Below, one piece after another: positions 24,210 to 34,358 of a stretch of 64,000 nt of DNA; positions within the stretch are counted from its first letter, which is position 1, and each line of letters opens with the position of its first letter. Source of the DNA: an uncultured Bacteroidota bacterium (GTDB lineage Bacteria; Bacteroidota; Bacteroidia; Chitinophagales; Chitinophagaceae); NCBI GenBank assembly GCA_903882805.1, contig CAIRYK010000053.1, positions 62,001-126,000 of the forward strand, given 5' to 3'. Below the pieces are notes generated by a model, which saw only the letters and a program-made list of their open reading frames with translations, did no database searches and was not told the DNA's origin. The translations under genes and the position numbers were made by a program.

Positions 24210-24479
24210 AATTCAGTGTGAAATTAAACCTTAAAGCGATTAGTATAATAGGTTGCAGGGATTTTTTTGACGGATGCGGAGCTTCAAAACCTATTGCATA
24301 ATTCCAACTGTGATCTGGTAATAAATTGGAGCGTTTGATGGAAGCTAATTTACATTACCCTAAAATGGATTCAATCTTCGGAAAGCTATCTTTAGGGTTA
24401 TTACAGTGTATTCACGAACATTCTTTAGAATTCTAAACTGGTTTTTCAGTAATTCAACTTAAAAATTCCGGAGCCACAA

Positions 24480-24664
24480 GGTGGCGTTGGCCAGATGCCA
24501 GGTCTTTGGGCAGGTGATTTTTTTTCGAGCCCTACCAGGAGTAGCATTTCATCGGCTGCCGTTTGTTTCTGCCTGCCGCTCATGGGCGCCAAAAGTTGCT
24601 TCCCTTTTTCGGCGGCTGTAAAATAGAATATCAGTGCAAAGGTTTGCATTACAAAGCCTATTTG
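24480..24664 (-). pseudogene. Remnant of the ABC ATPase gene found at 27172-27846
   Basis: The minus strand reads IGFVMQTFALIFYFTAAEKG and APMSGRQKQTAADEMLLLVG, matching VGFVMQSFALIPYLTAAENV and APMSGRQKQTAADEILRLVG of the intact ATPase, and after a frameshift continues NHLPKDLASGQRH, matching NHLPKELSAGQRQ. Only the middle of the gene remains: no Walker A, no Walker B. DNA-level similarity is high, so the duplication is fairly recent. On its other side it abuts an rsmI fragment in opposite orientation. Confidence 0.75.
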
Positions 24665-25018
24665 TTGTTTGAAGGGTTTTTGCCCCAGAAAAAAGGCAGG
24701 CAAACCATTCTGCGCCTGCTATCGAGCGAGGAACGCACCATAATACTGTATGAGTCGCCCCACAGATTGGTAAAAACCCTTACCGAAATGGCTACCTGTT
24801 TTGGCCCCGACCGTTAGGCCGCAGTGTGCCGCGAGCTGACCAAAATGTTTGAAGAGACCAACAAAAACACCCTTACAGCCCTTGCTGCCCACTACACAAA
24901 ACACCCACCCAAGGGCGAAATAGTAATAGTAATAGCCGGTAAAGACCCACGAGCCGCCCTGCTGCCAGAGCCGGATGCACAAATAGAAGAAGGGGAGGAA
25001 GGAGATGAAGTGGAGTAG
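24659..25018 (+). pseudogene. rsmI: 3' remnant of rsmI (16S rRNA 2'-O-methyltransferase) with a nonsense codon
   Basis: The frame reads LFEGFLPQKKGRQTILRLLS, then EERTIILYESPHRLVKTLTE, CFGPDR, a TAG at 24815-24817, and AAVCRELTKMFEETNKNTL, KHPPKGEIVIVIAGKDPR to a stop at 25018. These are signatures of the C-terminal half of RsmI, which methylates the ribose of C1402 in 16S rRNA. The AdoMet-binding N-terminal half is missing. A CAG to TAG change would explain the stop. The acidic tail (EEGEEGDEVE) is consistent with the natural end. An intact rsmI may exist elsewhere in the genome. Confidence 0.8.
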
Positions 25019-25356: not shown

Positions 25357-27066
25357 CTATGCCAATTGGCTTATTCTCCATATTGTTTTGGCCTGTTTCG
25401 CCATCCATTTTTGCCGATCCGCAATATGCTCAGGTGTCCATTCGCTATTCTCCTCAGCAATTTTTTGTGTTATCAAAAATTCACTTTTTGCATACATTCC
25501 TTTTTTGTCCGGAAATTCCTTATTTCCAACTAATCTGTTATCCGTTGAGTTCATCAGTGTCATATTACCCAATCGGTACACAAATTGTTCATGTTCTGTA
25601 TCCGAAAATTGATCCCAATCATTTCCAAGCGATTCAGGTAAAATATGCTCAATATTGTATTTGTCGCTTGTTGTGCTATAATCTACCGAAGACTCACGCT
25701 TTTCCAATTTAAACAGTACATACCGAACAATATCCCTGCCATGCTTTTGAGTTGTTTTTATTTGCTTATCGCTAAACGCATTAAAGAAGGTGGAATCATC
25801 GGGGTATAAACTACTAAGTGCTTGAATTACTGCCGAAATACCAGTTAAAGTGCCCCTGTGCAACTGCTCCGCGACATTGGTATAAACCAATTCTTGGTCA
25901 TTTGTGGGTAAGTTGCCAATAACATTATACCTAAAAGAAATGATACTGCACACGTTTAGTAGCGAAGTAAAATCTTTGGGACTCAGCACTCTATAACCAG
26001 CAAGCAACAAAGGATATAACTGGCGCACGCTGAACATTGTTAACTCTCGAATATATACGCGCTGATCCGCGTTCCATAAAACATCCTCAGGTTTGGATAG
26101 CGCAACATAAAGGTCTGCATCTTCTCCCATTTCTCGAAGCAACTCAAATACTAAACCTCGGCTATTAATTTTCAACTGTATTTTCTTAAAAAGTTCAGCC
26201 GAGCGTACCATTTTGTTTCTGCTATTCCAGTGTGTACGCAAAAAGTTCGGAAACTTTTCACTGCCCAACTTTCCAACCAAATCTTCCCAACGTTCATCCA
26301 GTTGATTCAACTCTGTTTCATTATTACCTTCTTTGTGTACTACTGAGAATAAATAGTTCTTCAATAAATCGGTTGAGGAGAGTTTTACCCCACGCGCATT
26401 AAGTGTTTCGAAAACTTTATATGCGTTCAGTTCGTCATTTACAGTTATTACTGTAAAAAACAGTTTATCACTTAAATTTTCCAATAATGTAGCCAGTAAT
26501 GCGCCGTCTTTTTTATTTCCATACTCCTGCCATATTTTACCTTCAAACCACTCAAAAGCTTTACGCATTTGATGTTCAGTAAATTTTACATTTCTTGTAG
26601 GTAATTTCTGCAACGGAACGAGGTAGTGTTGGTAATAGGAGTTGTTATTCCTGTTGAGCTCCAGTTTGGTTTTTGCAATCAGCGTTACCGGGTCAAGATA
26701 ACCAATAAAGGTACTTCTTAATTGCGTTTGTCTGATCTTATTGTCGTCGGGGTCTACTCCATCAGCTATTAGCCGTTCAAAATTTTTCAGTACGGAAAGC
26801 GAAATAATACTTAAGGTAGTAATACGTTGCTGCCCATCTATAATATCAAATTTCTTATTGTCTTTAGATTGGAGCACCAAGTAGCCCATGTAATGGGCAG
26901 TTTCACCATCAGTCTGAAATAGATTTTGAATATCTGCCCACAAATCACTCCATTCCTCATCTGTCCAGCTATAATCGCGCTGAAACCGTGGTACGGTATA
27001 TATCAGTCCATTTCCTATCAGGCTCCTGTAAGTTTGATTTGAAGTATTGAAATTAGTAATAGACAT
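25357..27066 (-). CDS. DUF262/DUF1524 protein, GmrSD-like restriction type
   Basis: 569 residues from ATG 27066. The N-terminal DUF262 (GmrS-like) domain shows VPRFQRDYSWTDEEW and the nucleotide-handling motif IIDGQQRITT at 75-84. The C-terminal DUF1524 (GmrD-like) nuclease domain shows an HNH-type pattern: NIEHILPESLGNDWD followed by YRLGNMTLMNSTDNRLVGN. Fused proteins of this kind act as modification-dependent restriction or other anti-phage factors; BrxU is a described relative. The gene is visibly more AT-rich than its surroundings, stands alone and is bordered by gene remnants, which fits acquisition by transfer. Substrate and partners are unknown. Confidence 0.85.
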   Translation of the reverse strand: MSITNFNTSNQTYRSLIGNGLIYTVPRFQRDYSWTDEEWSDLWADIQNLFQTDGETAHYMGYLVLQSKDNKKFDIIDGQQRITTLSIISLSVLKNFERLIADGVDPDDNKIRQTQLRSTFIGYLDPVTLIAKTKLELNRNNNSYYQHYLVPLQKLPTRNVKFTEHQMRKAFEWFEGKIWQEYGNKKDGALLATLLENLSDKLFFTVITVNDELNAYKVFETLNARGVKLSSTDLLKNYLFSVVHKEGNNETELNQLDERWEDLVGKLGSEKFPNFLRTHWNSRNKMVRSAELFKKIQLKINSRGLVFELLREMGEDADLYVALSKPEDVLWNADQRVYIRELTMFSVRQLYPLLLAGYRVLSPKDFTSLLNVCSIISFRYNVIGNLPTNDQELVYTNVAEQLHRGTLTGISAVIQALSSLYPDDSTFFNAFSDKQIKTTQKHGRDIVRYVLFKLEKRESSVDYSTTSDKYNIEHILPESLGNDWDQFSDTEHEQFVYRLGNMTLMNSTDNRLVGNKEFPDKKGMYAKSEFLITQKIAEENSEWTPEHIADRQKWMAKQAKTIWRISQLA

Positions 27067-27171: not shown

Positions 27172-27846
27172 TCATGCGACCACCTCCCCATCCTTCAGAT
27201 GTATTTTCCGGTTGCCGTAGGCGGCGGCCATGGGGCTGTGGGTAACCATGAGTATGGTTAGGTTTTGAGTTTTGTTGATGGTGGAGAGCAAATCGAGGAT
27301 GTCGGTAGATAGTGTGGGGTCCAGATTGCCGGTGGGTTCATCTGCAAGTATCAGTTCGGGTTTGTTGATGAGGGCACGAGCTATAGCCACCCGCTGGCGT
27401 TGCCCTGCGCTCAGTTCTTTGGGCAGGTGATTTTTTCGGTTTTCCAGCCCTACCAGGCGCAGTATTTCATCGGCAGCCGTTTGTTTCTGCCTGCCCGACA
27501 TGGGTGCCTGCGCCAGTGGCAGCATCACATTTTCGGCGGCAGTTAGGTAGGGTATCAGTGCAAAACTCTGCATCACAAAGCCCACTTTGCTTTTTCGGAA
27601 GTGCGATAACTGACTGTCTGAGGCAGAGGTGATGGTGAAATCCTGAAATTGCACAGTACCACCGCTCGACTGTATCAACCCGGCAAGGCACAGCAACAGC
27701 GTAGTTTTGCCCGAGCCAGAGGAGCCGGTGATAGTTACAAAATCGCCCTTATCTACCGCAAACGATACTTTGTTCAATGCATAGATATCACCATCGGCGT
27801 GGCGATATTTTTTTGTCAGGTCGCTTATTGTCAGTATCGTACTCAT
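27172..27846 (-). CDS. ABC transporter ATPase (LolD/MacB type), last gene of the ars-linked operon
   Basis: The start is ATG 27846, inside the stop of the permease gene (ATGA overlap), giving 224 residues; the longer open frame upstream is out of character. Motifs: Walker A GSSGSGKTT, Q-loop MQSFALIP, signature as SAGQRQRVAIARA (LSAGQ instead of LSGGQ), Walker B LILADEPTGNLD, H-loop VTHSP. It would energise the permease encoded just before it. A degraded partial copy lies at 24480-24664. Position as the eighth co-directional gene after arsR suggests expression under arsenic control. Confidence 0.9.
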   Translation of the reverse strand: MSTILTISDLTKKYRHADGDIYALNKVSFAVDKGDFVTITGSSGSGKTTLLLCLAGLIQSSGGTVQFQDFTITSASDSQLSHFRKSKVGFVMQSFALIPYLTAAENVMLPLAQAPMSGRQKQTAADEILRLVGLENRKNHLPKELSAGQRQRVAIARALINKPELILADEPTGNLDPTLSTDILDLLSTINKTQNLTILMVTHSPMAAAYGNRKIHLKDGEVVA

Positions 27847-29060
27847 TCCTCCTGCATATTGATGAACGGATCTATTTTGCCTGCCAGGTATGCCGGAATT
27901 GCAGACCCCAATAGAGCTACTACCGCAGCAATAGCCAGAGCTGCCGGCAACAGTTGCGGCAGTGGCTGCACTGCCAGTTGGGCAAACTGCGGTCCCAGCC
28001 ACATAGCAGCGCCAGTGCCAATTATATACCCCAGTGCGCCACCCATTATACCCAGTATCAACGCCTTGGCCAACAGCAAACGGTATATAACCCCCTTCGA
28101 AAACCCTATCATCCGCAACATGCCTATTTCTTTGCGCCGCTCATTTACATTGGCCCACATAAAGTTGCCTATAGATACACCTCCTACAAACAAAATAATC
28201 ACCAAAAACACCAGCGACACCTTGTTCATCAGTTTGTTGGTTTGTACTTGTGTGGCTACTATCTGGCCTATGGTGGTTATCTTGGTGTCGGGCAGCAGGT
28301 TGCGGAGTTTGCTCAGCAAGCCGTCGGTTATGGCATTGCAGCAGCCCATTATTTCTATAGCGCTTACCTGCTCTTTTATGCCCAGCAGGCGCTGCACCGT
28401 GTGCAGGTGAGCAAAAATCCGGTCGTCGTCTATAGTGCCGGTTTCGGTCAGTACTTTGGCTACTTTAAAGCCGCCACCTTCCAGGGTTATAGTATCGTTT
28501 TCTTTGAGCTGCAGCCTTTGTGCGGCCGACGAACCCAAAATACATTCATCTTCCTCAATTGCGTCTATCGACTTCCGTAGCAGTTTTTCGTCTTTATATG
28601 CTCCATTATCTGTGGCAGCCCCTGGCGCACAACTGGCCTTAGCCCCTGCCCCAAACAAACCCGATTTTTGCCACAGCGGTTTTGAGGCCAGTTCGTTTTT
28701 AGGCAATATTCCGGTAAGCGCCAGTTTTTGACCCCTTACTGTTATGCGCCTCGTCAGTTTTGGCGACATATTGTCTACCCCCTGCAGTGCAGACGTGGCT
28801 ACAATCTCTACATAAGCTTCGGGAAAGGTGGGTGCATCAATATCGGCGGTGTAGTAGTTGTCTACATTGGCGCCTTGGGGGAGTACAAGTATATTGGCGC
28901 CCAGATTATCGAGATTGATAGCCACTGCTTTTTCAGATACCACCGATACCGAACGAATACCCACAATAACCGCCACTCCCAGCGTGATAGCCAGTAATCC
29001 GGTTATCAACTGCGACTTGTGGTACTTAAACTCCAGCCAAACAAGTTTTGTGAGATTCAT
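27843..29060 (-). CDS. FtsX/MacB-type permease with cysteine-bearing extracytoplasmic domain
   Basis: From ATG 29060 (MNLTKLVWLEFKYHKSQLIT), 405 residues; the open frame runs further upstream but overlaps the previous gene. TM1 is LLAITLGVAVIVGI; a large domain at 45-275 follows; three helices close the protein (SLVFLVIILFVGGVSIGNFM, LILGIMGGALGYIIGTGAAM, LPAALAIAAVVALLGSAI). The coupling motif NERRKEIGMLRMIGFSKG is clear. The extracytoplasmic domain has Cys144 (GAKASCAPGA), Cys173 (EEDECILGSS) and a Cys240-Cys241 pair (EIMGCCNAITD), unusual for this family. It overlaps its ATPase gene by 4 bases and follows the thioredoxin-like gene by 10. Role in arsenic or thiol handling is inferred from context only. 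Confidence 0.85.
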   Translation of the reverse strand: MNLTKLVWLEFKYHKSQLITGLLAITLGVAVIVGIRSVSVVSEKAVAINLDNLGANILVLPQGANVDNYYTADIDAPTFPEAYVEIVATSALQGVDNMSPKLTRRITVRGQKLALTGILPKNELASKPLWQKSGLFGAGAKASCAPGAATDNGAYKDEKLLRKSIDAIEEDECILGSSAAQRLQLKENDTITLEGGGFKVAKVLTETGTIDDDRIFAHLHTVQRLLGIKEQVSAIEIMGCCNAITDGLLSKLRNLLPDTKITTIGQIVATQVQTNKLMNKVSLVFLVIILFVGGVSIGNFMWANVNERRKEIGMLRMIGFSKGVIYRLLLAKALILGIMGGALGYIIGTGAAMWLGPQFAQLAVQPLPQLLPAALAIAAVVALLGSAIPAYLAGKIDPFINMQEE

Positions 29061-29070
29061 GAACGGATAA

Positions 29071-29808
29071 TTATTTCTTACAGTTTTTAGCGCCGCCGGG
29101 GCAGCACTCTTTGACTTCCTTCTTGGCCGATTCCACCAGCGTGTTGGTTTGCACCGGCAAGGCGTGCTTCGACGAGAAATCGCCCTTGCTGTTGAACACA
29201 TGCACAATAGTGCTTTTTACAGGTTGCGCCGGATTGAGTAAGGCTATAAACGGAGCCTCTGCTTTGTCGTCGAGGTCTACTTCTACCACCACTGCCTTGC
29301 CTTTCAGCGCATCTGTTGCTTTCTTACATTCGGCTATCATGGCAGGTTTGTCGGTAAAACTCTTTTTATACATCGCCACAAATACAGGTTTCTTTTGGTC
29401 GAAACCCAACAAGGCTTCCGATTGTTTTGGCGTGGGTATGCCCTCAACCAGTTTTTGGGGTGTGGCATCTTGCTTGGCAAAACCTTCTGTTACAACCCCG
29501 TTTTGTGCTACTACCAGAACCATGGGCATGGGTGCGCCGCTAAGGCCGTAGCGTTTTACCGATGCGGCATTGGCAGGATCTGCCTTATCCATCATCAGCA
29601 CTGCCGAATGCGGATAAAGGGCTTTGGCCTTCTGTGCAATATCTTTCAGCGGCGCAGCATTTGCCCCACCCTCCGTTACTACCAGAAACACCGCATTACC
29701 CAGTTTGTTTTGCTTCGCAATATCATTGGCTACCTGCGCCCCGGCAGTTGTTGCTGCCAGCAATAACAATCCCGTAAGCAAGCCGAAAACGCTGTTATAT
29801 ATGGTCAT
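29071..29808 (-). CDS. Secreted thioredoxin-like protein with cysteine-rich tail
   Basis: 245 residues from ATG 29808. A signal peptide (FGLLTGLLLLAATTAGA) is followed by two alpha/beta segments. Each has a strand and proline turn as in thioredoxin folds (NAVFLVVTEGG with GLSGAPMPMVLVVAQNG; KPVFVAMYKKS with VVVEVDLDDK), but neither has a CxxC site. Cysteines are Cys161 (AECKK) and a C-terminal cluster Cys235, Cys236, Cys243 (EVKECCPGGAKNCKK). The tail resembles metalloid-binding ends such as that of ArsD in this operon. Its genes on both sides are 28 and 10 bases away. A periplasmic binding or delivery role for the ABC transporter is a hypothesis. Confidence 0.7.
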   Translation of the reverse strand: MTIYNSVFGLLTGLLLLAATTAGAQVANDIAKQNKLGNAVFLVVTEGGANAAPLKDIAQKAKALYPHSAVLMMDKADPANAASVKRYGLSGAPMPMVLVVAQNGVVTEGFAKQDATPQKLVEGIPTPKQSEALLGFDQKKPVFVAMYKKSFTDKPAMIAECKKATDALKGKAVVVEVDLDDKAEAPFIALLNPAQPVKSTIVHVFNSKGDFSSKHALPVQTNTLVESAKKEVKECCPGGAKNCKK

Positions 29809-29836
29809 TGGGTCTGGTTTCTATTTTTCTATAAAA

Positions 29837-30607
29837 TTAGTAAGCCTTACGCAGCATATCTGCATATTTATTGGGCAGTGGACTGTTTTCTACCGCCACA
29901 GCAGCCTTTTCTACATCGTACTCAAATCTTATAAACTCTACTTTTATGGCATCGCGGACGGCAATACTGCTGTCTTCGTTTATGTGCAACAGCACGTAGC
30001 AGCCTCTGGTATCTCCATCCTTTGGCTTGCCTACCGAGCCGGTATTTATGGCATGGCGGTAGCGGGTTGTTTCGCCTGCCTGTTCCATTATGCGGTGGTA
30101 GGGCTTGTGGGTATGGCCAAAACACATAATATCGGCATCTGCATCGGTCATTATACGCAGCATACTTTTTTCGTCGCGGTCTTCAAACAAGTATTCGTTT
30201 ATTTTCCTTGGGCTGCCATGCACCAGCAGTAGGTTAAGCCTGTCTTCATTGAGCTGAAACTCTATGCGTATATGTGCCGGCAGCGTGCGGAGATACCTGC
30301 GTTCGTCGTCGTGCACTATTTCGTTGGTATACGATATAGATATCTTGCCCATTGCCTTATCGTCGTCGGTTTTGTAGGCGCAGCCACATTCGTCGATTGC
30401 GCGTCCTATGCCGAAATCGTAGTTACCGGCAATAGTGGGTATGCCCCGCTGCCTGATGATATTGATAACCTCGTTTGGCCAAATATTGTAGCCTACCAGG
30501 TCGCCGAGGCAATAAATAGCGTCGGGTTGCTTACTGTCTATGTCTGCAAGGCAGGCTTCCAGTGCCGGCAGATTGGCATGTATGTCTGAAAATAGCGCTA
30601 TACGCAT
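29837..30607 (-). CDS. Calcineurin-like metallophosphoesterase in the ars operon
   Basis: 256 residues from ATG 30607. The metallophosphoesterase motifs are in order: FSDIHANLPAL (Asp8, His10), CLGDLVGYN, AGNYDFGIG (GNxD in place of GNHD), LLLVHGSP and CFGHTHKPYHR, followed by NTGSVGKPKDGD. This is the single-domain YfcE/MJ0936 type, which binds two metal ions and hydrolyses phosphodiesters or monoesters; the substrate is unknown. A cysteine pair ECGCAYK lies after the GNYD motif. It is 18 bases after acr3 and 28 before the thioredoxin-like gene, so it is firmly inside the ars unit. No predicted export signal; cytoplasmic. Confidence 0.87.
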   Translation of the reverse strand: MRIALFSDIHANLPALEACLADIDSKQPDAIYCLGDLVGYNIWPNEVINIIRQRGIPTIAGNYDFGIGRAIDECGCAYKTDDDKAMGKISISYTNEIVHDDERRYLRTLPAHIRIEFQLNEDRLNLLLVHGSPRKINEYLFEDRDEKSMLRIMTDADADIMCFGHTHKPYHRIMEQAGETTRYRHAINTGSVGKPKDGDTRGCYVLLHINEDSSIAVRDAIKVEFIRFEYDVEKAAVAVENSPLPNKYADMLRKAY

Positions 30608-30625
30608 GGTAGTATTTTTAAGTTG

Positions 30626-31696
30626 TTACAGAGACTTCGTATAATATTTTTTGCGGAGCCAGAAGGCTACATTAACCAGGGCTATTAGGGCGGGCACCTC
30701 TACCAGAGGGCCTATTACTCCTGCAAAGGCTTGTCCGCTATTGATACCGTATACACCTATGGCCACTGCAATAGCCAGCTCAAAGTTGTTGCCGGCGGCG
30801 GTAAATGCTATGGAGGCATTGGTAGAATAGTCGGCGCCCATTCGCTTGCCAATGAAAAAACTGGCTAAAAACATAATGGCGAAATAAATAACCAATGGTA
30901 TGGCAATGCGCACCACATCGAGCGGTATTTGCACAATAAGTTTGCCCTTGAGGCTAAACATAACCACAATGGTAAAAAGCAATGCCACCAGCGTAATGGG
31001 AGATACACGGGGTATAAACTTTGTGTTGTACCACTCCTCGCCCTTAGCTTTAAGCAATACAGTGCGGGTAAGGTAGCCAGCCAAGAAGGGAACGCCGAGG
31101 TATATACCCACGCTTTGCGCTATTTGCCCAATAGTAATATCGACAGTAGACCCGGTAATACCAAACAACGGAGGAAGCACGGTAACAAACACATAGGCAT
31201 AAACGCTGTAGAGCAACACCTGAAAAATACTGTTCATAGCTACCAGTCCGGCGGCATATTCTCGACTGCCTTCGGCCAGTTCGTTCCACACTATTACCAT
31301 GGCTATGCAGCGCGCCAGCCCTATCAGTATCAGCCCTACCATGTATTCGGGGTAGCCGCGCAGAAAAACTACCGCCAGCACAAACATCAGTATGGGGCCT
31401 ATCACCCAGTTGAGCAGCAGCGACGCGCCAAGCACACGGGTATTTTTAAACACCTCCTTCAGCTTGTCGTAGCGCACCTTGGTGAATGGCGGATACATCA
31501 TGAGTATCAGCCCTATAGCCAGCGGAATATTGGTAGTACCCGATGAAAATGAATCGATAAAGCCCGATGAGGAGGGTATGAAATACCCTATAGCCACGCC
31601 CAGTCCCATGGCCATAAATATCCACAAGGTGAGGTATTGGTCTAAAAAGCTCAGTTTTTTTCGTTCGTGCGCCGGTGCGCAGTTGTTTGCCGACAT
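30626..31696 (-). CDS. acr3: ACR3-type arsenite efflux permease
   Basis: 356 residues from ATG 31696. Ten membrane helices typical of ACR3/BASS transporters are visible, starting with [20 protein letters not shown]. The family cysteine sits in helix 4 as Cys130 ([17 protein letters not shown]), and the conserved end segment is [19 protein letters not shown] with the acidic residue needed for transport. ACR3 exports arsenite (and sometimes antimonite) across the inner membrane, here probably with ArsA as an added ATPase. The gene starts 14 bases after the arsA stop. The N-terminus [14 protein letters not shown] is short and cytoplasmic. Confidence 0.95.
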
Positions 31697-31710
31697 GCTG
31701 TGTTGTTGTA

Positions 31711-33492
31711 TTAATGGTTATGGTTGGTTGTGTATTTGTTTACCAATACCGGCAGCAGGTTTTTCTCCGGTATTAGCGGTATGCCATAGGTGCGTGGAGC
31801 CAGATTGTTTTCTATGTTTTTTATCACTGCCACCTCGGCGGCTGCGCGTTTTCTCAGCAATGGGTCGGTAATGCCGTGCTGCATACTCAGGCTTTGGTTT
31901 ACCACCCACGCATAGGGGGTAATACCCGCCCTTTTCAGGTCTTCCTGCAAGGCCGCGGCCTCGCGCATGGGCGTGGTTTCGGGCAGCGATATCAGCAATA
32001 TTTTAGATAGCTCATGGTCTTGCAGCGCCATGTAGGGTGTTTTTATGCGCGCTGCATCGAGGCTGGTATTGCGCAACACCTCGCGGTGGTAGCTGCCTGC
32101 AGTGTCGAGCAGCAACAGCGTATGCCCGGTAGGCGCAGTGTCCATTACCACAAACTTGCGTTTGGCTTCGCTTATGGCTTTAGAAAAAGCATGAAATACC
32201 GCTACTTCCTCTGTACAAGGCGATTTCAGGTCTTCCAGCAATAGTTTCTTGCCGTTTTCGTCCAGCTTTTCACCTTTCTGAGCCATTATTTTATCTACAT
32301 AATGCTGTGTTTCTGCTTTGGGGTCTATGCGGTCTACAGTTAGTGTAGGGGGTATTTCGGTTAGCTGGTCTATAAAATCCTTTACATGCGCGGCAGGGTC
32401 GGTGGTGGTGAGGTGCACTTCAAAGCCCTTCTGCGCCAGCAGCACAGCTATAGCCGACGCTGCAATGGTTTTACCTACGCCACCCTTGCCCATGGTCATA
32501 ATCAGTCCATGATTTTGGGTTTCGGCAATGTGGTTTACAAAATCGCCCAGACTTGCCAGCGTGTGGTCTATCTCTGTTATCTTACTTATTTCGGCAGCTA
32601 TCGCCTCCCTTTGCAATTCGGGGTGCAGCAGTGAGCGCAGCTTTTGTATACCCAGCACATTGTAGGGCAGTAGCGGAAAGGTAGTTAGCGGTAGCAGCAA
32701 TAGCTTCGGCGGTATAGCTTGAAGCTGTTCGTCGGCAAGGGCTTGCATGCCCACGGCTATGGTGTCGGTAGTGTCTATGGCTTTAAAAACACCGTTTATA
32801 TACAGGCGCTGGTTTTGCATACCCAGCTCGTTAAGCTCCTCGCTGGTGCGCGCAGCCTCCTTGAGCGACGATCGCTCGGCTCTCGATACTATATAAAATG
32901 TGGTTTGTGCGGCATCGCGCAGCCTGCTCACTACGGTATTGTAGCGTTCCTGACTGCTTTTTAGCGCCGAGGTAGGCCCAAGGCACGAAGCCCCATCGGG
33001 ATTTTCTTTGCTGAAATCAGACCAGGCAGCAGGTAGCTCCAGCAGGCGCAGCGTGTGGCCGGTGGGCGCTGTATCGAAAATAACCACATCGAATTTGCCG
33101 CCCTCATTCTCGCGCGAAATAAACCGGGAGAACTCGTCGAACGAGGCTATCTCTGTTGTGCATGCCCCGGATAGTTCTTCTTTTATTTTTTTAATGGCTG
33201 CTGCCGGTAATATATCATTCAGCGGCTCTGTAACCCTGTTGCGGTATTCCTCGGCCGATACTTCGGGATTGATATTGATGGCAAACAGATTATCTATTCC
33301 GTTTACCGGACTTATTTTTTCGGACACCTTGCTCTCCAGCACATCTTCCAGATTAGACGCCGGATCGGTACTGACCAGCAACACACGCTTCCCTTCGTCG
33401 GCAAGGCGCACTGCTGTAGCGCACGATAGCGAGGTCTTGCCCACGCCACCCTTACCGGTAAAAAACAAAAACGGCGTTGTGCTGTTTTGCAT
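31711..33492 (-). CDS. arsA: Arsenite-stimulated ATPase ArsA, two-halved
   Basis: 593 residues from ATG 33492, the full pseudo-dimeric length. The A1 P-loop is GKGGVGKT at 13-20 and the A2 P-loop at 335-342; each half has the DTAPTGHTL signature (140-148 and 451-459). Cys111 ([11 protein letters not shown]), Cys170 ([10 protein letters not shown]) and Cys426 ([11 protein letters not shown]) correspond in context to Cys113, Cys172 and Cys422 of the E. coli R773 enzyme that bind As(III). ArsA receives arsenite from ArsD and energises efflux through the partner permease. It sits between arsD (54 bases upstream) and acr3. Confidence 0.95.
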
Positions 33493-33546
33493 AGGTATTT
33501 CTTTTTTTGATTAAATGATTACTGATGCCCATTTAGCTGCTGCAGC

Positions 33547-33939
33547 TTAGCAACAACCGCTGCCGGAGCAGCAACTGCCCGACTCTTTGTTTTCTACTGG
33601 CGCCATGGTCAGTTCCACCATTTTGCGCGGTTTCTCAGCGCCTGCGCTCAGTAGCGACTCCCATTCTGCTTTTTCAGGATAGCGTCCGGACATAACAAGA
33701 CGATTATCAATGAAAATATAAGGCAATGAATCTGTGCCTTCTTTTTGCAGTTTGGCAATAGCTTCGGGATAATTTTTGAATGCCGCGGCATCATTTGCTA
33801 TGCCATGGCGGTCTACCTCATGTCCGGTTGCCTTCAGCCATTTTACATTGGCAGCAGTTTGTACAAGCACATCATCTACATCGGTTCCGCAAACGCCTGT
33901 GCTGCAACACATGGCCGGATCAAAAATGGTAATTTTCAT
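33547..33939 (-). CDS. arsD: Arsenic metallochaperone ArsD with extra C-terminal cysteines
   Basis: 130 residues from ATG 33939. The metalloid site Cys11-Cys12 and Cys17 (DPAMCCSTGVCG) matches Cys12/13/18 of the R773 protein, and the thioredoxin-like fold shows DSLPYIFIDNRLVMSGRYP. The tail ends ESGSCCSGSGCC, adding two vicinal cysteine pairs beyond the core. ArsD hands As(III) to ArsA and weakly represses. It follows arsR by 34 bases. Confidence 0.93.
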   Translation of the reverse strand: MKITIFDPAMCCSTGVCGTDVDDVLVQTAANVKWLKATGHEVDRHGIANDAAAFKNYPEAIAKLQKEGTDSLPYIFIDNRLVMSGRYPEKAEWESLLSAGAEKPRKMVELTMAPVENKESGSCCSGSGCC

Positions 33940-33973
33940 ATGGGTATGTTTTTATGTTTTTTATTAGTAGAAA

Positions 33974-34309
33974 TCAACAACAATCGCCATCGCCGCACAA
34001 GGACACTTCTTTAAAAAATGCCGAGAAAAATTCGCGATACTCTTGCCACACTGTAAGGTTGATGCAGTAGCACACGCTGTTTCCCTCTACCGTGCCGCGA
34101 ATGATACCTGCGTTTTTAAGTTCCTTGAGGTGTTGCGATACCGTTGGTTGGGCAAGACCCAGCTCAGTAACCAGCTCGCCGCATATACAGGCCTTGGCTG
34201 CTACCAGCTGCTGCAAAATGGCTATGCGCGCCGGATGCGCTATTGCCTTGGCCATATTGGCAAGGTCGTTTTGCTCTTTGGTAAATAAGTCGATTTTTGT
34301 AGCGCCCAT
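33974..34309 (-). CDS. arsR: ArsR-family arsenic-responsive repressor
   Basis: 111 residues from ATG 34309. The winged helix has [20 protein letters not shown] followed by the recognition helix [19 protein letters not shown]. Cysteines that could sense As(III) are Cys41 and Cys43 in the helix before the HTH (KACICGEL), Cys80/Cys82 in the wing (SVCYCIN), and Cys105, Cys110, Cys111 at the end (SLCGDGDCC). First gene of the ars run; it should bind the palindrome at 34327-34342 just upstream and leave it when arsenite binds. Confidence 0.93.
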
Positions 34310-34326
34310 AGTTTATTTATTAATTG

Positions 34327-34358
34327 CAATATTACGATATTGAGATTTACGAAACAAG
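34327..34358 (-). promoter_or_regulatory. ars promoter with overlapping ArsR-type palindrome
   Basis: CAATAT-TACG-ATATTG at 34327-34342 has perfect 6-base arms, 17 bases before the arsR start. On the minus strand TAATATTG (34334-34327) is one base from the Bacteroidota -7 box TAnnTTTG, and TTG (34357-34355) stands exactly 20 bases further upstream as the -33 element. The palindrome covers the -7 box, the geometry expected for repression. Confidence 0.7.

Follow-up and report, generated by a model that had tools for sequence, protein, structure and literature searches.

What would a secreted thioredoxin-like protein and an FtsX-type ABC transporter do in an arsenic resistance (ars) operon? In the usual account of arsenic resistance, arsenic is reduced in the cytoplasm and extruded into the periplasm, and to our knowledge the fate of As(III) between the inner and outer membranes is largely open. 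The question is raised by an uncultured member of the Chitinophagaceae (Bacteroidota; assembly GCA_903882805.1), in a stretch of 64,000 nucleotides of contig CAIRYK010000053.1 (positions 62,001 to 126,000), which is called the window here. Eight genes on its minus strand follow one another: arsR, arsD, arsA, acr3, a metallophosphoesterase (MPE) gene and the genes of a thioredoxin-like protein (TrxL), an FtsX permease and an ABC ATPase. In our searches of the open-licence literature, we found no description of an FtsX-type ABC transporter in ars operons or of the TrxL-FtsX-ABC trio. Our results indicate that the trio is a conserved arsenic-linked envelope module, and the linkage is well supported. 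The best explanation of the whole locus, to which we give a probability of about 50%, is an ArsR-controlled operon with a cytoplasmic stage followed by an envelope stage.

Conservation of the trio and its linkage to ars genes

In the window, TrxL (29071..29808), the permease (27843..29060) and the ATPase (27172..27846) are encoded in this order on the minus strand. A first TrxL scan of genome contigs gave no relative. A scan with an FtsX alignment then yielded 110 relatives; we kept 80 of them, and the 80-locus counts below cover these (L038-L117). Some genomes are repeated among the loci (L009/L042, L010/L038, L011/L040, L012/L045, L013/L044, L014/L097 and L089/L118). Gene clusters were defined by single linkage, and the 'arsC' cluster includes an arsC-arsM fusion. 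Phylum labels were not used as evidence because contigs of metagenome-assembled genomes (MAGs) may be mis-binned. All 80 loci came from records of MAGs or uncultured bacteria, which may explain why the trio went unnoticed.

The exact trio, with TrxL directly before FtsX and the ATPase directly after it, was present in 70 of the 80 loci found via the permease. Three of the ten exceptions end at a contig edge where the gene is missing. At L069 (1849-3865), TrxL and FtsX have no ATPase gene beside them, though the contig runs on for about 5 kb. An ArsR-family gene was the immediate same-strand neighbour in 51 loci (37 upstream and 18 downstream, some both). Same-strand runs with gaps of at most 200 bp held acr3, arsA or arsD in 41/80 loci and an ars-type gene of any kind (counting ArsR) in 64/80; acr3 lay inside the fetched stretch in 49, at 0.6 to 8.3 kb from FtsX. 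The extra genes of the window are thus kept beside ars genes in other genomes, a point on which the preliminary description had made its proposal depend. At the genome level, acr3 was found in 69 of the 80 trio genomes and in 155 of the 395 genomes of a class sample (Fisher test, P = 3e-15, to be taken as a guide only because the 80 loci are not independent and relatedness was not corrected for). These 69 genomes comprise 46 recognized by local clustering with Acr3 rather than by the curated cut-off, and 23 of 34 that were searched whole and scored above the cut-off; three more of the 34 had acr3 fragments (G460, G468 and G479).

Besides the genome of the window, six congeners had TrxL, and FtsX and the ATPase came next in all six. 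The order was arsD-arsA-acr3-TrxL-FtsX-ABC in G034 and G021 and acr3-MPE-TrxL-FtsX-ABC in G017; in G008, G028 and G031 the trio and acr3 were on different contigs. All six trio congeners had acr3, compared with nine of 34 congeners overall (P = 6e-5).

A quick FtsX tree required at least 29 changes of neighbour arrangement, although some of the 'other' labels are contig ends, and its well-supported branches alone forced 11 changes for the state 'ArsR upstream'. In this tree 26 of 79 inner branches are open, L097 is a long row, and open reading frames (ORFs) of more than 410 residues were cut to the last 410. With so many changes, the ars linkage cannot be put down to a single frozen ancestor. 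Two loci with acr3-MPE-trio, the window and L097, sat in different supported sets. This combination probably arose more than once, L097 being a row of unsure place.

Elsewhere, the neighbours of the trio included members of the ArsE, ArsF and ArsG families, a SaoE-like permease (below cut-off) and an arsC-arsM fusion. At L086 (11401-12633), a pI258-type ArsC is fused to an arsenite methyltransferase. An ArsR with the CVC motif, which has a role in the response to As(III), was nearby in L052, L067, L069, L111 and L117, loci without acr3 in the stretch. We also observed, near the trio, a small lipoprotein-like protein with a conserved cysteine (11 loci), paired with a barrel-like secreted protein (15 loci); L041, L058, L075, L077, L082, L085, L088, L095 and L104 are among the loci with the pair. 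The barrel-like protein has CC at its mature start in 13-14 of 16 rows, and one representative of each protein gave no Pfam match. The pair might be outer-membrane partners of the trio.

The trio permease was rare in the class sample, where the best other genome reached 675 bits and the runner-up 71 (395 genomes, at most four candidates scored in each). With the TrxL profile, one genome besides that of the window, and no new locus, was found in the phylum sample (395 genomes); the order of G066 contained a single genome. No TrxL was found in plasmids; FtsX gave no relative in phages and one distant relative in plasmids.

Folds and conserved cysteines of the trio proteins

TrxL is a secreted protein without a match to any curated family in Pfam or NCBIfam. 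Its predicted model consists of two thioredoxin folds in tandem, so that by the model it would belong to the thioredoxin fold. It has no CXXC and ends in the tail CCPGGAKNC, whose cysteines are C235, C236 and C243. A CxxC outside the last 25 residues occurred in just two of 70 family rows, and the tail cysteines were kept in 79/80 and 78/80. The window protein matched neither the ArsE nor the ArsF model, and the latter was matched weakly by eight of the 70 family members (best E 0.0037). With these models unmatched and CXXC absent, TrxL was rejected as an ArsE, an ArsF or a CXXC oxidoreductase.

The permease is of the FtsX/MacB type (PF02687 and PF12704), with extracytoplasmic C144, C173, C240 and C241. 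Its partner ATPase is LolD/FtsE-like (PF00005, 115.7 bits), and it reached neither the LolD cut-off (218.2 bits, cut-off 307.75) nor that of SaoA (136.8, cut-off 360). With a permease domain, an extracytoplasmic domain and a partner ATPase, the two form an FtsX-type (type VII) ABC transporter. C144 was conserved in 79 of 81 permeases and C173 in 69, and C240 and C241 were conserved in all 81, a count biased in favour of the pair because IEIMGCC, present in 78/80, was a search pattern.

In fold and domain order, the window permease resembles MacB, LolCDE and HrtBA, and the ATPase is of the same family. It differs from them in its extracytoplasmic cysteine set and its TrxL partner, and in the lack of an adaptor or lipoprotein carrier; none of the eight window genes encodes a membrane-fusion adaptor as in MacAB-TolC. 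A rival explanation is a BceAB- or LolCDE-like unit which senses or removes envelope components damaged under arsenic. We consider this very unlikely, since the operon has no histidine kinase or lipoprotein-carrier gene, the LolD cut-off was missed, and the conserved cysteine sets of TrxL and FtsX would be left unexplained. Repair of arsenic-damaged envelope components, which had been suggested from gene order and cysteine content, found no specific support.

The metallophosphoesterase as a Car1-type arsenate reductase

A 2025 paper describes Orf1, an ars-operon metallophosphoesterase that shares about 40% identity with the As(V) reductase Car1 of Rufibacter tibetensis; Cys74 and Cys76, which are essential to the activity of Car1, are both present in Orf1 (PMC12124457). 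The window MPE (29837..30607, minus strand; PF12850 78.8 bits, cut-off 27) reads IDECGCAY, which places Cys74 and Cys76 in a C74-G-C76 loop. Among the 19 distinct MPE rows compared (L119 being the window), 16 had the C-G-C loop together with GNY. The other three were tandem paralogues with GNH, the usual motif of the metallophosphoesterase family, and had no cysteine loop. Like Car1, the window enzyme is a metallophosphoesterase with Cys74 and Cys76 in an ars operon beside acr3 (PMC12124457); orthology of the two is putative and rests on motif and context.

We found MPE matches at E <= 1e-40 in 36 of the 395 class-sample genomes, that of the window included. When the MPE and acr3 tables of this sample were compared by hand, MPE and acr3 were no more than about 1.2 kb apart in 25 of the 36 genomes and in 19 of the 27 with at least 57% identity (window genome included); the matches below 57% are likely to include paralogues, and the cysteine loop was checked in the 19 distinct proteins. 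Eleven genomes had no acr3 near MPE: ten gave no acr3 match at E <= 1e-60, and the remaining one (42% identity) had acr3 elsewhere. In one of the ten (L127, 279-2928), arsR, arsM, the gene of a Car1-like enzyme and that of a MIP channel are consecutive, arsM and the channel being assigned by NCBIfam. Such an arrangement is consistent with As(III) being produced by the Car1-like enzyme and leaving via the channel. L128 (1498-3771), with no acr3 at E <= 1e-60, has similar genes by eye. A Paraclostridium plasmid carries a relative of MPE (40.1% identity) between arsR and acr3-arsM; Paraclostridium is also the genus of Orf1 (PMC12124457). In L121, L122 and L123, a second metallophosphoesterase gene, whose product has no CGC loop, comes after the Car1-like gene, and a second such phosphoesterase gene also follows the Car1-like one on a Mucilaginibacter plasmid (L132:5001-6493).

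From motif and gene context, the window MPE is predicted to be a Car1-type arsenate reductase, which is no new function. There is no arsC among the genes of the window run, so MPE would fill the arsC slot. As MPE has the cysteine pair and is linked with acr3 independently of the trio, it seems to belong to cytoplasmic As(V) reduction; in view of these two features, a phosphate- or damage-related enzyme was rejected. MPE and the trio also differ in distribution, and the four extra genes were therefore rejected as one unit.

Operon layout, operator and regulon

Window genes were assigned to families by Pfam and NCBIfam profile matches against curated cut-offs. Upstream of MPE, on the minus strand, are arsR (33974..34309; NF033788 71.9 bits, cut-off 55), for an ArsR/SmtB repressor with a CICGEL motif and a C-terminal CGDGDCC; arsD (33547..33939; NF033727 105.9 bits, cut-off 90), for an As(III) metallochaperone with a C-terminal CCSGSGCC; arsA (31711..33492; TIGR04291 731.5 bits, cut-off 650), for a two-domain pump-driving ATPase; and acr3 (30626..31696; TIGR00832 451.5 bits, cut-off 282.8), for an As(III) efflux permease, which is the sole SBF-family match in the whole genome. 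All four are above the NCBIfam cut-offs and lie in one same-strand run with gaps of at most 54 bp. The successive gaps between the eight genes are 34, 54, 14, 18, 28 and 10 bases, followed by a 4-base overlap, exactly as first described. The locus resembles ArsRDA-Acr3 operons in that arsR, arsD, arsA and acr3 form a single run headed by an ArsR box, and differs from them by a Car1-type enzyme in place of arsC and by the added TrxL-FtsX-ABC.

Just before arsR, at 34323..34338 on the minus strand, is the ArsR-type operator core ATCGTAATATTGCAAT. The 4.94 Mb genome has two sites with at most one mismatch to this core, and both are exact. The second (C68:4928; L139:4928-5801) is directly ahead of arsM, whose product passes the arsenite methyltransferase family cut-off. 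A reversed-pattern control gave 0 matches in all eight genomes searched, and the ArsR-type operator that had been proposed at the head of the run is thereby borne out. The ArsR regulon predicted from this pattern consists of the window operon and arsM, and one ArsR may control the two loci. Among 112 arsR upstream regions scanned, the exact core was present in 11, which represent nine distinct loci including the window. The operator headed the trio-holding run in five of eight chosen trio genomes. In G008, G028 and G031, the box precedes an arsR gene located on a different contig from the trio; the match is exact in the first two and has one mismatch in G031.

The single promoter of the preliminary description did not reappear: neither a sigma-70-type scan nor a Bacteroidota-type pattern gave a promoter between the operator and arsR. 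The scans for internal signals counted 15 terminator-like sites (shuffles, 10.2 +/- 2.9) and 13 promoter-like sites (shuffles, 11.3 +/- 3.0), both near the shuffle level. Since the same scans miss a head promoter, they tell little about internal promoters. Judged from the gene order and the operator, the eight genes are predicted to be an ArsR-controlled ars operon, co-transcribed and induced by arsenite.

Immediately downstream of the operon is a 569-aa ORF (25357-27066, minus strand) with no NCBIfam match at 1e-8; it presumably resembles a DUF262-type restriction or defence protein. About 2.5 kb past the operon end, at 24472-24670 (minus strand), we found a decayed partial copy of the ABC ATPase gene (53 aa at 68% and a further piece of 19 aa in tblastn; 211 columns at 76% in blastn).

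Other FtsX-ABC units with thiol partners

Similar units occur in other metal contexts. The one distant plasmid relative lies in the copper island of pPRO1 of Pelobacter propionicus (L021:6883-9692), where genes for an HMA protein, an FtrD-like protein, FtsX and ABC stand together. This FtsX scored 199 bits on the trio FtsX profile; C144 and C173 are missing from it, and the CC site reads CSGC. The HMA protein has a CCGGKNGGC tail which resembles that of TrxL. On pIFL1_1 of Vibrio campbellii (L138:3673-7061) the order is ArsR-x-FtsX-ABC-TlpA (142 bits), and on a Massilia putida plasmid (L134:3756-8356) it is ArsR-x-x-x-FtsX-ABC-DsbD_N (68 bits), both without the CC pair. These two plasmid clusters are possibly further metal-specific versions of the module. 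The FtsX proteins of the Fet cluster (FtsX-FtsX-ABC-TlpA) reached 79 and 77 bits with the trio profile, no higher than three MacAB-type controls (49 to 83). FtsX-ABC units that have a thiol partner are thus found repeatedly with metals, and they may form one clade.

The Fet system bears on the main rival explanation, namely that the trio gives thiol-redox support, the ABC transporter and its thioredoxin-fold partner supplying or relaying reducing power or a small thiol in the periplasm and so protecting or regenerating thiols attacked by exported As(III). FetMP-FetABCDEF joins ABC permeases, an ATPase and thioredoxins in one operon with a metal transporter, and the prediction made for the Campylobacter cluster by its authors is that reducing power is sourced by the ABC part (PMC10783030). 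A version on an Escherichia coli plasmid has FtsX-type permeases and a TlpA protein, and the Vibrio plasmid module, headed by ArsR, also has TlpA. However, Fet differs from the trio in its two permeases, its CXXC thioredoxins, its FTR1, P19 and FtrD proteins and its role in iron uptake, and FTR1 permease, P19 and an FtrD-like protein are all absent from the window operon. TrxL has no CXXC, and its profile fails to match the Fet TlpA protein. C144, C173 and the CC pair are missing from the FtsX proteins of Fet, although one has a single cysteine aligned with C241. We regard the redox explanation as unlikely.

ArsEFG and SAO share with the trio thioredoxin-like proteins and an arsenic or organometal context. 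Unlike the trio, SAO relies on an ABC transporter that has substrate-binding subunits (PMC13188914).

A possible two-stage mechanism

MacB, LolCDE and FtsEX work by movement of their outer domains (mechanotransmission) and not through a channel. We infer a similar mechanism for the handling of arsenic by the trio. In the cytoplasm, the Car1-type MPE would reduce As(V) to As(III); ArsD would pass As(III) to ArsA, and ArsA and Acr3 would extrude it into the periplasm. There, TrxL, without a CXXC redox site, may bind As(III) through its C-terminal CC-x6-C thiols and deliver it to FtsX, whose extracytoplasmic domain has its own conserved set of cysteines. ATP hydrolysis would then move this outer domain and free arsenic from the protein thiols, and the freed arsenic would go towards the outer membrane and the medium. 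Control by the operator, arsenic binding, transfer, direction and energy coupling are all proposed on this model. More tentatively, the trio could be a dedicated ATP-driven periplasmic second stage after Acr3, and the arsenic branch of a wider family of FtsX-ABC-thiol units with specializations for iron, copper and other metals.

As the same operator also heads arsM, the ligand of TrxL is possibly trivalent methylated arsenic. In another explanation, the trio is an exporter of one particular arsenical (methylated As(III) or an arsenic-thiol conjugate), taken from the inner membrane or the periplasm, comparable to HrtBA with heme and to MacB with its substrates. Such export appears quite unlikely to us: the window operon has no membrane-fusion or TolC gene, the substrate is hypothetical, and no arsM was noticed in the fetched trio locus of G017, where a genome-wide search was not made.

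Several observations weigh against the two-stage explanation, in addition to the search bias at the CC pair. The window operon has no gene for an outer-membrane exit, and arsenic binding and a phenotype of the trio are predictions. The cysteines are not invariant, C236 of TrxL being absent in 26/80 and C173 of FtsX in 12/81. In the model of FtsX, the C144 loop and residues 241-243 have a predicted local distance difference test score (pLDDT) below 50, so that no thiol site is modelled. The exact operator core was not found in 101 of the 112 arsR upstream regions scanned, which presumably use other boxes. None of the 83 TrxL upstream regions scanned, covering all loci, had an ArsR box (best, four mismatches). 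In three of the eight chosen genomes, the trio is apart from acr3 and there is no ArsR box within 200 bp of TrxL. Lone trios without a box in three congeners mean that control by this operator is not universal. Three of the nine acr3-bearing congeners have no TrxL, which makes TrxL accessory.

Three observations would also be expected if the trio had another role and were a mere passenger of ars islands. Sixteen of the 80 same-strand runs are without an ars-type gene, several of them at contig ends; eight of the 80 trio genomes, all draft MAGs, have no acr3 or clear fragment of it; and in G008, G028 and G031 the trio has neither ars genes in the fetched stretch nor a box. However, the ars linkage outlasts many rearrangements, and the genome-level co-occurrence with acr3 also holds for unlinked copies of the trio, which makes a passenger scarcely credible.

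The two-stage explanation modifies the original idea that four extra genes form a second line of arsenic handling. It stands for the trio, as an ars-linked envelope module, and fails for MPE, which is separate and would act in cytoplasmic As(V) reduction. The periplasmic binding protein with a transporter, as initially proposed, remains the best reading of TrxL and FtsX-ABC.

Implications

The trio looks like an unrecognized second stage of arsenic handling outside the inner membrane. Through an ars-linked envelope module that has its own ATPase, the question of periplasmic As(III) acquires named genes and testable cysteines. The function of the ABC part of Fet is called unclear by its authors (PMC10783030). 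FtsX-type ABC units with thioredoxin-fold partners are perhaps a general metal-handling class, which, if true, would help explain this part of Fet.

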